64,000 bases of DNA from Phymorhynchus buccinoides (Eukaryota; Mollusca; Gastropoda; Neogastropoda; Raphitomidae): the NCBI GenBank assembly GCA_017654935.2, contig CM065710.1, positions 28,476,285 to 28,540,284 of the forward strand. Direction: 5' to 3'. The notes beneath the pieces are model-generated. The model worked only from the letters and a program-made list of their open reading frames with translations. It made no database searches and was not told the origin of the DNA. Below, one piece after another: positions 17,201 to 57,300 of the stretch. The translations under genes were made by a program, and so were the position numbers. Position 1 is the stretch's first letter. Each line of letters opens with the position of its first letter.

Positions 17201-18718
17201 TCTGCAGTAAGAAAGGCAAGACTGAAAAACTGGAAACAACCAAGAAATGGAGGAAGGGGGTGGGGTGGGGGGGCGCATCTTTGCCTTTACCGAAAATTGT
17301 TTTGGGGCCGGTTGAAATACCTCGCTCTGGTCAATGTGGTGTTTTGTGTGTGTGTGTTTTTTATGTATCTATTCAGTGCAGTTTTGTGGTTTTGCCCTGT
17401 GCTTTCAGAGAAGCTGCCGTTCTCCATACGGGTGTTGCTGGAGTCTGCGGTGAGGAACTGCGACAATTTTCACGTGCTGGAGAAAGATGTGCGCAGCATA
17501 CTGCAGTGGTCCCCGGCCATGGAGAGCAGTGTGGAGATCCCCTTCAAACCTGCACGTGTCATACTGCAGGATTTTACGTGAGTCGTTCGTTTTTACATCT
17601 TAATGCATAATGCGTGACCTTACATCACTGTATATTTTAAGCGTAACGTAAAGATGTGCGCAGCATACTGCGGTGATCTCCGGCTATGGATCAGAGTGTA
17701 GAAATCCCCTTCAAACCGGCACGAGTCTTACTGCAGGATTTTACGTGAGCCGTTCGTTTTTACATCTTAATGAGTACCATATTTTTCAGATAATTAGGCA
17801 CTGCTGTGTATAAGGCGAATACTGCAATTTTAAAGTAAAAGGCACCCTCGTTTATAAGGCGATACACACCTCGCAAAAGAAAGTCGAAGTTTGAAGCCCT
17901 GTAAACTCTTACCGACTGCCATTACTGCTGTCATAATCGAGAGTTGGCTCCCTTCTCAAATAATCGAACTTCCGTTTTTGCGACTTCCGGTTGTTGTGTT
18001 TGGACTTTTCTTCGCGAAAACTGGTAGAATTATGTCATTTTAAGCTCTACAATGATGCTTTTTACATCCAATGAAGGGTTATGGCTTTTTATGGCATCTG
18101 TTTGACGGTATCTCGGACGATAATACAGATTTTGAAGCATTTTGACGTGAGTATTCGTCATATCAGTGACTCGTGACCACTTTCGATGTCTAGATTCGCT
18201 ATCCATCGTATCAGCGACTCGCGACCACTTTCGATGTCCAGACTCACAGTATACTGTACTGAGCACGGCAATCGTTGCCTCTCTTCTCACGATTTTGTTC
18301 ACTAATACAGCTTATACAGGTGTGCATGTGGGTATGCCTGAAGCCTGAATTCAGGCAATTTGATGCTGCTTCAGGCAGCTGAGTGCCTGAAGAAAGGGCT
18401 CTTTAACATGATATCATTCTTTTGTACATTGGGTTTCGGCAAGAAAGTTTTGGTCACTGCCTGCACCCATGCTTATAGGGCGCTCTCGTTTATTAGGCGC
18501 ATAGGTCGAAATTGGAGAAAAAAAGATTGCCTTATAGTCAGAAAATGACGGTAACTGTTGTTGTTGTTTTTTCCTGTCAGTGGTGTTCCGGTGGTGGTGG
18601 ACTTTGCGGCCATGCGTGAGGCGGTGACGCGTCTGGGGGGGGACCCCACCAAGATCAACCCCATCTGCCCCACCGACCTGGTCATCGACCACTCAGTGCA
18701 GGTTGACGTCTCTCGAAG
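5278..18718 (+). CDS. ACO1: Iron regulatory protein 1 / cytosolic aconitase, 5' part (exons 1-4)
   Basis: This is the amino-terminal part of IRP1. With its [4Fe-4S] cluster the family isomerises citrate and isocitrate in the cytosol. Without the cluster it binds iron-responsive elements in mRNAs. Four exons (5278-5290, 15433-15528, 17409-17577, 18581-18718) join in frame to give residues 1-139. They include the family segments [47 protein letters not shown] and [13 protein letters not shown]. All introns are GT-AG, with phases 1, 1, 2 and then 2 after exon 4. The start was chosen because the ATG at 5278 sits just before a strong donor (GTGAGT) and the short exon joins exon 2 in frame. The gene does not continue on this strand: the remaining exons are on the opposite strand beyond a 500-N gap. 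The cytosolic IRP1 family fits better than mitochondrial aconitase, and no presequence is seen. Confidence 0.93.
5297..5936. other. Start of IRP1 intron 1, no further feature
   Basis: Single-copy-looking intronic sequence. Nothing recognised. Confidence 0.5.
5937..6078 (-). mobile_element. CAGTGGAACC MITE, degenerate copy
   Basis: The ends CAGTGAAGACCTCC and GAGGTTCCACTG are flanked by TA, and the inner ATAAGACTCCCTCCCA and GAGACATTGCCC match the copies at 15155, 21326 and 54374. TA flanks and CAGTGG ends suit a Tc1/mariner-type MITE. Confidence 0.75.
6112..6610 (+). mobile_element. Palindrome-rich element with GGCRCGCC ends
   Basis: The terminal GGCGCGCCAAAG pairs imperfectly with CGGCGTGCC at the right end. 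Both subterminal regions are built from repeated hairpin motifs such as AACTCTATCTAGCTGTTCGA and GATAGAGTTT. The middle (6270-6440) is not repetitive. The superfamily is not recognised. Confidence 0.65.
6611..6979. other. Intron 1 sequence with a short telomere-like tract
   Basis: 6776-6792 reads GGGTTAGGGTTAGGGT. Otherwise nothing recognised. Confidence 0.55.
6980..7249 (-). mobile_element. TTAACCCTTTCAC-type MITE
   Basis: It begins TAACTCTTTCACTGCCAATG and ends GGCTGGCGGCGAAAGGGTTAA. The inner CACCACAATGGTTTAACACC, ATGTCACAGAGGAATT and TACCATTAA-type blocks define the family. Other copies lie at 27602, 29741, 36298, 36499, 51561 and 57878, with fragments elsewhere. Confidence 0.85.
7288..7460 (+). 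repeat. (CA)n microsatellite
   Basis: CA dinucleotide tract with interruptions. Overlapping open frames are artefacts. Confidence 0.95.
7480..7680 (+). mobile_element. CAGGGCTCCCA MITE, copy 1
   Basis: The ends CAGGGCTCCCAA and CTGGGAGCCCTG are inverted repeats around TAGAGGGTCC blocks. It is partner to the copy at 8401-8620. The element sits between two CA tracts. The ends resemble hAT termini. Confidence 0.75.
7681..7746 (+). repeat. (CA)n microsatellite
   Basis: Pure CA tract abutting the MITE end. Confidence 0.97.
7976..8350 (+). mobile_element. SINE family B copy
   Basis: It begins GGCAGTGGGTGGATGCCTCG and TGCCTCCATTCGGGGAGCTG, continues with TTCTGTGCTTGTGACTTTCT and TTTGACTCTGCCTTTTCCC, and ends near AAAACTGTCTGAGCAATCGA. 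The same order recurs at 37810, 43340 and 60936. Confidence 0.75.
8401..8620 (+). mobile_element. CAGGGCTCCCA MITE, copy 2
   Basis: The ends CAAGGCTCCCAATTG and CCTGGGAGCCTTG form inverted repeats. The body TATAGAGGGTCCTAGAG matches 7510-7680. Confidence 0.75.
8621..9143. other. Intron 1 sequence, nothing recognised
   Basis: AT-rich, no structured repeat or coding signal seen. Confidence 0.5.
9144..9211 (+). repeat. Small foldback TTAAAGACCCAC
   Basis: TTAAAGACCCACTACGC at the left pairs with GGTGTGGTGGGTCTTTAA at the right. It is probably a tiny MITE remnant. Confidence 0.6.
9291..9560 (-). mobile_element. SINE family B, copy with the alternative end
   Basis: In reverse it reads GAACTTCCAGAAGGTGGAAC and GCAAAGGGAAAAGGCAGAGT, with an end carrying ATTCCGATTTCGGAGGAGCG and GGTCTCCCCGCTGCATACAG. 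Identical end blocks lie at 46680-46800 and 61210-61330. Confidence 0.75.
9561..9800 (+). repeat. Dispersed repeat fragment
   Basis: 9695-9780 (CAAGTGCTTCGGCTGTTGGG, then GATCCCTGGAGTCTT) is shared, in reverse, with 28905-28990 and with 51530-51560. Confidence 0.55.
9878..11240 (+). mobile_element. Non-LTR retrotransposon fragment, reverse transcriptase to 3' end
   Basis: Conceptual translation in shifting frames gives [11 protein letters not shown] and [20 protein letters not shown] (RT palm, first catalytic Asp). Later come the motif-C peptide FYADDSQLQ, a thumb-like [14 protein letters not shown] and a C-terminal [10 protein letters not shown]. This order fits a CR1/L2/Jockey-group element. 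The 5' end and endonuclease are missing, at least two frameshifts are seen (around 10160 and 10640), and a stop ends the frame near 11072. It is a dead 5'-truncated insertion in IRP1 intron 1. Confidence 0.88.
11511..11570 (+). mobile_element. Left end of a TTAACCCTTTCAC MITE, interrupted
   Basis: TTAACCCTTTTGCTGCCAGC is cut after 45 bases by the next repeat. The right part of a copy of the same family ends at 12627. Confidence 0.6.
11555..11870 (+). repeat. ATAATA / TATATAGCGC repeat with CA/CACG microsatellite
   Basis: TTTATATAGCGCTCTTTCTC and the following blocks recur in reverse at 58800-58950 and 59450-59620 and partly at 48905. This looks like the 3' tail of a retroelement. 11715-11850 is a CA/CACG microsatellite. 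Confidence 0.65.
11871..12130. other. AT-rich intron, nothing recognised
   Basis: No structure seen. Confidence 0.5.
12131..12304 (+). mobile_element. ACCGTATTTT MITE, complete short copy
   Basis: The left end TACCGTATTTTATGGATTAT and right end AGTCCGTGAAATACGGTA are inverted repeats. GTGCGCCTTATAATC is typical of the family. Related copies lie at 17774, 27541 and 53797. Confidence 0.8.
12460..12628 (+). mobile_element. Right part of a TTAACCCTTTCAC MITE
   Basis: It contains CTGTGACATG, CCTATCCTTACCTCCCAAAA and GGCGGTGAAAGGGTTAA, matching the 3' half of the family. The hAT-like element starts directly at its end. Confidence 0.75.
12629..13129 (+). mobile_element. hAT-like non-autonomous element with 5-bp TTAAT duplication
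   Basis: The ends CAGGGTTC and GAACCCTG are perfect inverted repeats, flanked by TTAAT at 12624-12628 and 13130-13134. Subterminal AGGTCCTTACAAG motifs recur at both ends. CAGGG-type ends suit hAT. A 5-bp duplication matches the hAT5 group and not the usual 8 bp. Confidence 0.7.
13140..13620 (+). mobile_element. Ty3/gypsy-like LTR element leader and gag start
   Basis: TGGTGTCAGAAGTGGGATCA near 13160 resembles a primer-binding site just after an LTR. Downstream a frame from the ATG at about 13363 reads [20 protein letters not shown] and then SFEIY, typical of the start of gypsy-type gag proteins. The frame soon ends. Between them is a GA/CT hairpin (13269-13320). It is only a remnant, and the LTR limits are unclear. 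Confidence 0.6.
13621..14244. other. Intron 1 sequence, nothing recognised
   Basis: No coding signal or repeat structure recognised apart from short runs. Confidence 0.45.
14245..14650 (+). mobile_element. Non-LTR retrotransposon 3' end with RNase H-associated domain remnant
   Basis: The frame includes [19 protein letters not shown], the C..HHLLxECP pattern seen at the C terminus of some RNase H-bearing non-LTR elements. It then reads to a stop at about 14494, followed by poly-C/poly-A and a TTCATTCATT-type tail. The rest of the element is absent. Confidence 0.6.
14651..15154. other. Intron 1 sequence, nothing recognised
   Basis: No structured feature seen. Confidence 0.5.
15155..15337 (+). 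mobile_element. CAGTGGAACC MITE
   Basis: The ends CAGTGGAACCTCCC and GGGAGGTTCTACTG are flanked by TA. The arms carry TTATAAGACC and TCTTATAATGGGAGG. It lies about 95 bp upstream of IRP1 exon 2. Confidence 0.88.
15433..15528 (+). CDS. ACO1: IRP1 exon 2 (residues 5-37)
   Basis: The acceptor CTCTCAG precedes GGAACAACCCC, and the donor is GTGAGT. It encodes the family's amino-terminal strand including [14 protein letters not shown], comparable to the start of other IRP1 proteins. The length of 96 nt takes phase 1 in and phase 1 out. Confidence 0.9.
15556..15805 (+). mobile_element. Foldback element containing telomere-like repeats
   Basis: CTGCACTTGGTCATCT at the left pairs with GATGACCAAGTGCAG at the right. 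The centre has CCCTAACCCTAACCCTATCC (15673-15700). It starts 28 bp after the donor of IRP1 exon 2. Confidence 0.7.
15817..16310 (+). repeat. Poly-G run and long (GT)n microsatellite
   Basis: 15820-15831 is a G run. 15980-16310 is mostly GT dinucleotides broken by GTAGT. Open frames here are Val/Cys artefacts. Confidence 0.95.
16340..16495 (+). mobile_element. SINE family B end fragment
   Basis: It contains CTCCAGCCGAAGACGGACAT, CTTAGTTTGGCACATAACGG and GACAGGAAACTGAGCGATCG, then AAGAAGAAGAAG. Confidence 0.75.
16566..16610 (+). repeat. Poly-C tract, 45 bases
   Basis: An uninterrupted C run. It could form an i-motif, with a G-quadruplex on the other strand. Confidence 0.97.
16774..16972 (+). 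mobile_element. AGACCTGTTTAC MITE, copy with worn left end
   Basis: TACTCTACTCTTTTCGAGTA, TTACTCATTTTCAGTGAACA and GGGGGTAAACAGGTCT match the copies at 21722, 52879 and 59789. Confidence 0.75.
16985..17300 (+). repeat. Dispersed repeat shared with 33145-33375
   Basis: Both loci have TGGTTCATTGCG, TTTTCCGTCTT, a G-rich run and a TTTACC end in the same order. This copy lies just upstream of IRP1 exon 3. Confidence 0.55.
17409..17577 (+). CDS. ACO1: IRP1 exon 3 (residues 37-93)
   Basis: The acceptor is GCTTTCAG and the donor GTGAGT. It encodes [18 protein letters not shown] and later [16 protein letters not shown], which are highly conserved in IRP1. A degenerate copy of its second half and donor lies 167 bp downstream. 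Confidence 0.95.
17650..17773 (+). pseudogene. Degenerate duplicate of IRP1 exon 3 end and donor
   Basis: It is a 124-bp copy of the second half of exon 3, its donor and following intron (original about 17483-17606), 167 bp downstream. Translation gives KDVRSILR, a stop, then [20 protein letters not shown]. The donor copy reads AC|GTGAGC. The stop makes it non-coding. Confidence 0.9.
17774..18553 (+). mobile_element. ACCGTATTTT-family element, long copy
   Basis: The left end ACCATATTTTTCAGATAATT and the right end TAGTCAGAAAATGACGGTA are degenerate inverted repeats, with AAGGCGA and TAGGCGC near the ends. The interior has a pair of GACTCGYGACCACTTTCGAT repeats and CTTCAGGC-type hairpins. It ends 28 bp before exon 4. 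Confidence 0.6.
18581..18718 (+). CDS. ACO1: IRP1 exon 4 (residues 93-139)
   Basis: The acceptor is TTCCTGTCAG, and the donor GTCCGT is weaker than usual. It encodes [29 protein letters not shown] and VIDHSVQVD. It ends with two bases (AG) that need a single T from the next exon, and exon 5 at 60643 on the other strand supplies exactly that. Confidence 0.95.

Positions 18719-57300: not shown

Follow-up and report, generated by a model that had tools for sequence, protein, structure and literature searches.

The stretch of DNA considered here, called the window throughout, is 64,000 nucleotides long and corresponds to C31:28476285-28540284 in a 2.12-Gb assembly. Its coding exons belong to cytosolic aconitase, also iron regulatory protein 1 (ACO1/IRP1), and the subject of this analysis is the copying of the edges of those exons, splice sites included, into the adjoining introns. 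Searching with tblastn and joining of exons gave a model of 17 exons, numbered 3-19 as in the original prediction, in which the aconitase reading frame is intact; the exons are 60-184 bases long and the introns are long. The joined exons encode an intact stretch of 716 residues that is 90.1% identical to the aconitase of Nucella lapillus (645 identities), 90.1% to that of Babylonia areolata (645 identities), 89.0% to that of Littorina saxatilis (637 identities), 86.6% to that of Batillaria and 85.1% to that of Pomacea. The source is likely a caenogastropod snail. Because this product aligns over its full length with its snail homologues, it contains no extra coding segment.

The gene is encoded on the minus strand; the window contains its exons 5-19, and its own exons 3-4 fall past the right end. 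A second copy (exons 3-17, gene copy A) is found at C31:28422673-28454084, 90-100 kb leftward in contig coordinates, and the exons of the two copies are 98-100% identical. An inverted third fragment carrying exons 3-4 occupies window positions 17409-18718 on the plus strand and is followed by a 500-N gap. Uncollapsed haplotypes would explain the duplicated locus and its inverted fragment, and so would a recent duplication with a scaffold error; the stretch from 17409 to 24100, in which the inverted fragment runs up to the gap, likewise resembles uncollapsed haplotypes or a scaffold error.

An edge was counted as copied when a local same-strand repeat of at least 30 bits spanned it within 2.5 kb. 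By this test 9 of the 34 ACO1 edges are spanned, with best scores of 65-1345 bits that are far above chance: the ends of exons 3, 6 and 11 and the heads of exons 7, 8, 10, 12, 17 and 19. The heads of exons 17 and 19 are weak members, the repeat containing just 5 and 8 exonic bases, respectively. The head of exon 14 falls below the threshold, and direct reading places a copy of it 468 bp upstream, with an intact cacacag|GG followed by a short deletion. All ten edges named in the original prediction therefore have copies in the intron beside them; alignment across the edge shows this for nine and direct reading for the exon 14 head. The exons and their copied edges are the following, in window coordinates.

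17409..17577, plus strand: ACO1 exon 3 on the inverted third fragment (tblastn; 100% identical to the gene's own exon 3)
17650..17772, plus strand: copy of the exon 3 end with its donor site, at +167 (self-blastn, 89.5% identity)
56986..57169, minus strand: ACO1 exon 6 (tblastn, gene model)
55622..57066, minus strand: repeats of the exon 6 end, with 8 decoy donors (7 with GT intact), and the copy of the exon 7 head (alignment)
55037..55176, minus strand: ACO1 exon 7, with one head copy 485 bp upstream (gene model, alignment)
51851..52022, minus strand: ACO1 exon 8 (gene model)
51978..52873, minus strand: array of the exon 8 head, with 10 decoy acceptors within 1.5 kb, AG intact in all (alignment)
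46855..46983, minus strand: ACO1 exon 10 (gene model)
46964..48504, minus strand: array of the exon 10 head, unit of about 109 bp, 10 decoy acceptors (Tandem Repeats Finder, alignment)
46133..46280, minus strand: ACO1 exon 11 (gene model)
45346..46175, minus strand: array of the exon 11 end, unit of about 141 bp, 4 decoy donors, 2 with GT intact (Tandem Repeats Finder, alignment)
44514..44649, minus strand: ACO1 exon 12 (gene model)
44597..45010, minus strand: array of the exon 12 head, 83-bp unit, 4 decoy acceptors (Tandem Repeats Finder, alignment)
41295..41451, minus strand: ACO1 exon 14 (gene model)
41852..41918, minus strand: copy of the exon 14 head, AG intact directly upstream (direct reading)
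37117..37221, minus strand: ACO1 exon 17 (gene model)
37217..37327, minus strand: array of the exon 17 head, 37-bp unit with 5 exonic bases, absent from gene copy A (Tandem Repeats Finder)
27246..27393, minus strand: ACO1 exon 19 (gene model)
27386..27535, minus strand: repeat of the exon 19 head with 8 exonic bases (alignment)

Since the repeat units contain exon as well as intron sequence, they derive from duplication of genomic DNA and not from copying of spliced RNA. The original prediction had placed all of these edges in one gene, with 1 to about 12 copies each. The copy of the exon 3 end exists, but that exon sits on the inverted third fragment. Decoy copies per edge number 1 to 10 in the window, with 40 at the exon 10 head of gene copy A. 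Elsewhere in the gene, a 58-bp minisatellite of about 37 copies (window 38881-41010) stops 6 bases upstream of exon 15, reaching the acceptor region of that exon and not the exon itself.

Tests of edge preference on ACO1 alone conflicted, and exons of two other gene sets were therefore added: 30 CCT/HSP60 loci (of 54 matches) and 16 myosin exons (of 68 matches), the latter chosen by place before their sequence was seen. Matches were left aside if they contained stops, were near-duplicates or, in three cases, had very long open frames, a choice whose bias, if any, runs against finding arrays. Loci L021 and L025 (long and unspliced-looking) and L028 and L031 (second copies of the same exon) were dropped before counting, L051 was unused, and the ends of L046, L047 and L048, for which no donor could be named, were left out of the counts. 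The edges of the CCT and myosin exons were set by profile match and splice consensus, not by transcripts. The resulting sample is small, comprising 59 exons in three gene sets, with exons of one gene non-independent and alleles and paralogues pooled; in it, 34 of 115 edges are spanned by local repeats (95% interval 21-39%). These comprise 9/34 in ACO1, 17/49 in CCT/HSP60 and 8/32 in myosin. Heads account for 20 of 59 (6/17, 11/26 and 3/16 in the same order) and ends for 14 of 56 (3/17, 6/23 and 5/16), which agrees with the earlier claim that both 3' and 5' sites are involved. At least one edge is spanned in 29 of the 56 exons with both edges known. Because such repeats occur in all three gene sets and the affected exons are spread over 12 contigs, the habit extends past one gene, which supports the genome-wide habit that the original prediction had offered as one alternative. 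No complete exon with both splice sites was found inside a repeat unit among 56 exons, the end of L046 being excluded from this assessment. L046, a CCT epsilon exon, shows a near whole-exon duplication with copies about 446 bp apart, one having the head and a frameshift and the other being without the head but in frame.

Under a wider distance limit 35 edge families were tallied, and 25 of them are tandem. Identity falls with distance in 17 of the 19 arrays of at least three copies (three gene sets pooled). Thus, the earlier statement that copies closest to the exon are least worn stands as a trend, but the nearest copy is best or joint best in only 9 of these 19 arrays. Comparison of the two gene copies reveals turnover. 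In a uniform scan of whole introns, copies of the exon 8 head number 9 in the window and 3 in gene copy A, and those of the exon 10 head 9 and 40; likewise, the end of exon 14 has 0 vs 3 copies and the head of exon 17 has 2 vs 0. Other edges agree, including the head of exon 12 (4 and 4), the end of exon 11 (4 and 4) and the end of exon 3 (1, 1 and 1). These differences in copy number indicate that arrays arise, expand and are lost within the time over which the gene copies have diverged. They could alternatively reflect false expansion or misjoined haplotypes in the assembly, a suspicion that the duplicated locus, inverted fragment and 500-N gap might encourage. However, neighbouring units of the edge arrays in the window match at 76-100% (Tandem Repeats Finder) and are in part too diverged for false expansion, some edges (the head of exon 12 and the ends of exons 11 and 3) carry matching copies in identical or almost identical positions in the separately assembled gene copies, and edge repeats are found on 12 contigs; such an artefact is disfavoured and very unlikely.

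The copied splice sites are largely intact. AG or GT is retained in 132 of 149 copies (AG in 90 of 96 acceptors, GT in 42 of 53 donors), and when scored with matrices built from this genome's own splice sites, 101 of 149 decoys equal or exceed the score of the real site (68/96 acceptors, 33/53 donors), in keeping with the earlier description of near-perfect sites. At least one such decoy is present at 19 of 21 acceptor edges and 11 of 14 donor edges. The decoy AG matches in 96-98% of copies, which is not below neighbouring positions. Counter-selection of decoy acceptors was considered and rejected on the strength of their AG retention. That same retention, together with an excess of repeat families at edges described below, could be taken to mean that selection keeps the duplicated sites as back-ups. 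This is very unlikely, as the presence of copies varies between near-identical gene copies and the retention of AG resembles that of neighbouring positions, as expected under neutrality.

Taken together, these arrays are probably minisatellites founded across exon edges and repeated into the intron, of the kind termed 'mirage' in amphioxus. Tandem duplication of short stretches is frequent in this genome, acting throughout the examined intron sequence and catching about 30% of the examined exon edges where a founding unit happened to cross one. The units, of about 40-165 bp, each hold one splice site with exon and intron sequence, the exon terminating the array, and likely spread by replication slippage or unequal exchange. 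Since only one copy is joined to the remainder of the exon, and this copy is likely fixed by selection on the protein, all further copies would lie on the intron side, where they would drift and change in number. Slippage, which the original prediction had offered as a shared mechanism, fits the tandem arrays, as does unequal exchange.

With intact sites in the copies, the choice made by splicing would have to depend on position. The copy furthest downstream is the real acceptor at heads, and the copy furthest upstream is the real donor at ends; the real pair is thus innermost and bounds the smallest exon. Exon definition is part of general knowledge of splicing, and with short exons and long introns it would favour the innermost pair; the decoy copies are presumably ignored by splicing, likely for this reason. 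The alternative is that decoys are used, with alternative splicing yielding variant transcripts or marking transcripts for decay, and the intact, strong sites would allow it. Among the 132 intact decoys, 75 have one clear frame and 57 are undecided. Use of a decoy would bring a stop in 54 of the 75 and leave the frame open in 21. In the predicted aconitase of Nucella lapillus 20 residues are tandemly duplicated where exon 12 begins, which favours use, but internal repeats occur in only 2 of 120 homologues compared, both of them predictions (Nucella and Batillaria), and the amphioxus work reports regular splicing (PMC3087553). Use of the decoys is accordingly judged unlikely.

Whether exon edges are special depends on what is counted. 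Per base there is no excess, with 34 edges spanned vs 32.2 ± 3.1 matched intron points and, for repeats at least 90% identical, 20 edges vs 18.2 ± 2.5. Pooled clusters touching any edge number 33 of 116 vs 32.1 expected, and repeat coverage varies little with distance, being 0.24-0.40 within 500 bp of an edge and 0.20-0.33 beyond, with a peak 50-300 bp upstream of heads. For ACO1 alone, circular shifting of edges against repeat coverage gave 6-8 observed and 9.2-10.3 expected, with no excess under five definitions, while random placement of clusters gave an excess under two of three definitions, with 9/27 vs 4.8 (P = 0.023) and 9/23 vs 4.3 (P = 0.007), but 6/13 vs 3.6 (P = 0.10) for tandem clusters only. 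Counted by family, the result is different: of 99 families, 33 span one edge, where a formula that places founding units randomly in collapsed DNA expects 9.3 ± 2.8. Six simulations of uniform founding through the same pipeline yielded 9-14 edge families among 85-91 detected (mean 11.2 of 87.5), and clusters crossing exactly one edge number 34 vs 16.4 ± 3.7. The excess appears in each gene set (9 vs 2.0, 16 vs 3.7 and 8 vs 3.6), at increasing identity (19/71 vs 4.7 at ≥90%, 7/43 vs 2.5 at ≥95%, 5/25 vs 1.3 at ≥97%), with a 15-base margin (26/99 vs 7.2) and at stricter score thresholds. The two answers differ because intron arrays multiply their own bases whereas an exon edge is counted once. 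Thus the original prediction of a process special to exon edges, which had named a chance-level rate as the finding that would speak against it, is opposed by the per-base count and favoured by the family count.

Several results weigh against the interpretation of the arrays as ordinary minisatellites that splicing passes over. The approximately threefold family excess means that a process indifferent to exons falls short of a full account. Furthermore, 10 of the 35 edge families are spaced and non-contiguous, and the open frames noted above would permit some decoys to be used. GT is lost in 11 of 53 decoy donors, more than at neighbouring exon positions, and this might hint at selection against decoy donors; in five arrays, which offer a hint only, the first donor base matches in 83% of copies, compared with roughly 93% for exon positions and roughly 87% for intron positions in the vicinity.

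The family excess would be explained if edges were a preferred origin, with composition, chromatin, transcription or copying from the exon founding more duplications there than in introns. Set against this are the per-base and cluster counts and two influences that would raise the expectation. Composition was rejected as the full cause: the GC content of intron arrays is 0.444, slightly above the 0.413 of single-copy intron, but with rates specific to GC content the expectation rises only to 11.7 of 112 edges. Slower decay of the constrained exon half could, by a rough estimate, add up to about 1.5-fold. In addition, the family-based null was adopted after the first results had been seen. Given the residual excess on the one hand and this post hoc choice on the other, an edge-specific origin is kept as a serious possibility with somewhat less than an even chance. 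The combined proposal that edges are birth hot spots of tandem duplications, that strong decoy arrays occur at about half of exons and that the innermost pair is spliced and not the strongest is advanced tentatively and is, as a whole, somewhat less likely than not. Purifying selection was also considered as the reason why exons are never inside a repeat (0/56 vs 9.5 ± 2.3 matched intron segments) and was dropped; because founding units are mostly shorter than exons, the model expects only 0.12 cases.

Somatic length instability has reportedly been observed in the Adh3 mirage of amphioxus. This architecture was named for that gene and then found in globins, according to PMC3087553, where globin units measure 10-160 bp, affect both boundaries and keep many AG and GT; one such mirage has 6 and 3 units in two haplotypes, and RT-PCR suggests regular splicing. 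PMC3902484 adds troponin C and PGBD5. The snail arrays share the tandem unit across an exon-intron boundary, the range of unit sizes, the involvement of both 5' and 3' boundaries and the many copies with AG or GT kept. Copy number varies between haplotypes in amphioxus and between two assembled gene copies in the snail, which may be alleles or paralogues alike. Unlike the amphioxus mirages, those of the snail occur in another phylum (likely Mollusca), affect about half of the exons in three gene sets as opposed to single genes, and have had their decoys scored against real sites. The arrays likely belong to the mirage kind, extending it to what is probably a different phylum and to a larger scale. 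None of the papers listed in the literature searches showed boundary duplications in molluscs in its title or the start of its abstract, which does not prove that no such report exists.

Two further systems invite comparison. The Rogers model derives intron gain from tandem genomic duplication (cited in PMC3087553), and a potato RdRp case is described in PMC4974935. The snail arrays resemble these in being local duplications that include splice-like sites but differ in that the copies lie inside introns beside intact exons, with no extra coding segment in the ACO1 product. Variable internal tandem repeats in human segmental duplications (PMC2812944) likewise involve minisatellite expansion at exon-intron boundaries, which can alter gene structure; those concern young paralogues, whereas the snail genes are conserved and the habit appears in all three gene sets tried. 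Caenogastropod haemocyanin genes reportedly have a high rate of intron gain (PMC8599328), and the terms searched in that paper turned up no mention of tandem repeats.

How the spliceosome chooses among equally good neighbouring sites is a question mostly addressed with mutated reporters. Should the rate found in the 59 exons hold, natural tests of that choice would be very numerous in this genome, with real and decoy sites near-identical and differing in position, and with copy-number variation between gene copies among them. The arrays are also relevant to the long-standing proposal that duplications at exon boundaries contribute to intron gain. If edges were indeed hot spots and the innermost pair were chosen, the result would be a genome-wide natural test of exon definition and a standing store from which new introns and exons could arise. 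The arrays would also matter for gene prediction in genomes of this type, as decoys may be annotated as exon.

The duplication at the start of exon 12 in Nucella suggests either instability of this edge in a related snail or a gene prediction led astray. The predicted aconitase P0006 of Batillaria attramentaria (1212 residues) contains a long in-frame repeat (VSPLYQGQSPISRSVPYIK...) directly after the end of exon 5, possibly an intron minisatellite annotated as coding.

At about 20615-20760 of the window, on the plus strand, lies a likely optional exon between exons 4 and 5 (reading THHYSPNPGGGQGQPGSEVRSRSAPCKC...). Its core is present in gene copy A, and an exact-string search found none in gene copy B; insertions resembling it precede ADALEKNQ in the aconitases of Nucella, Babylonia and Batillaria. 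Adjoining the copy of exon 3, at about 17769-18554, is a dispersed element with at least 84 match rows on many contigs, mostly at about 79-90% identity (40 of 5524 candidates scored). Finally, a 41-bp minisatellite of about 6.9 kb lies within an ACO1 intron, running from 61355 to 64000 in the window and on to about 68254 in window coordinates, and the stretch that matches it in gene copy A is about 1 kb.

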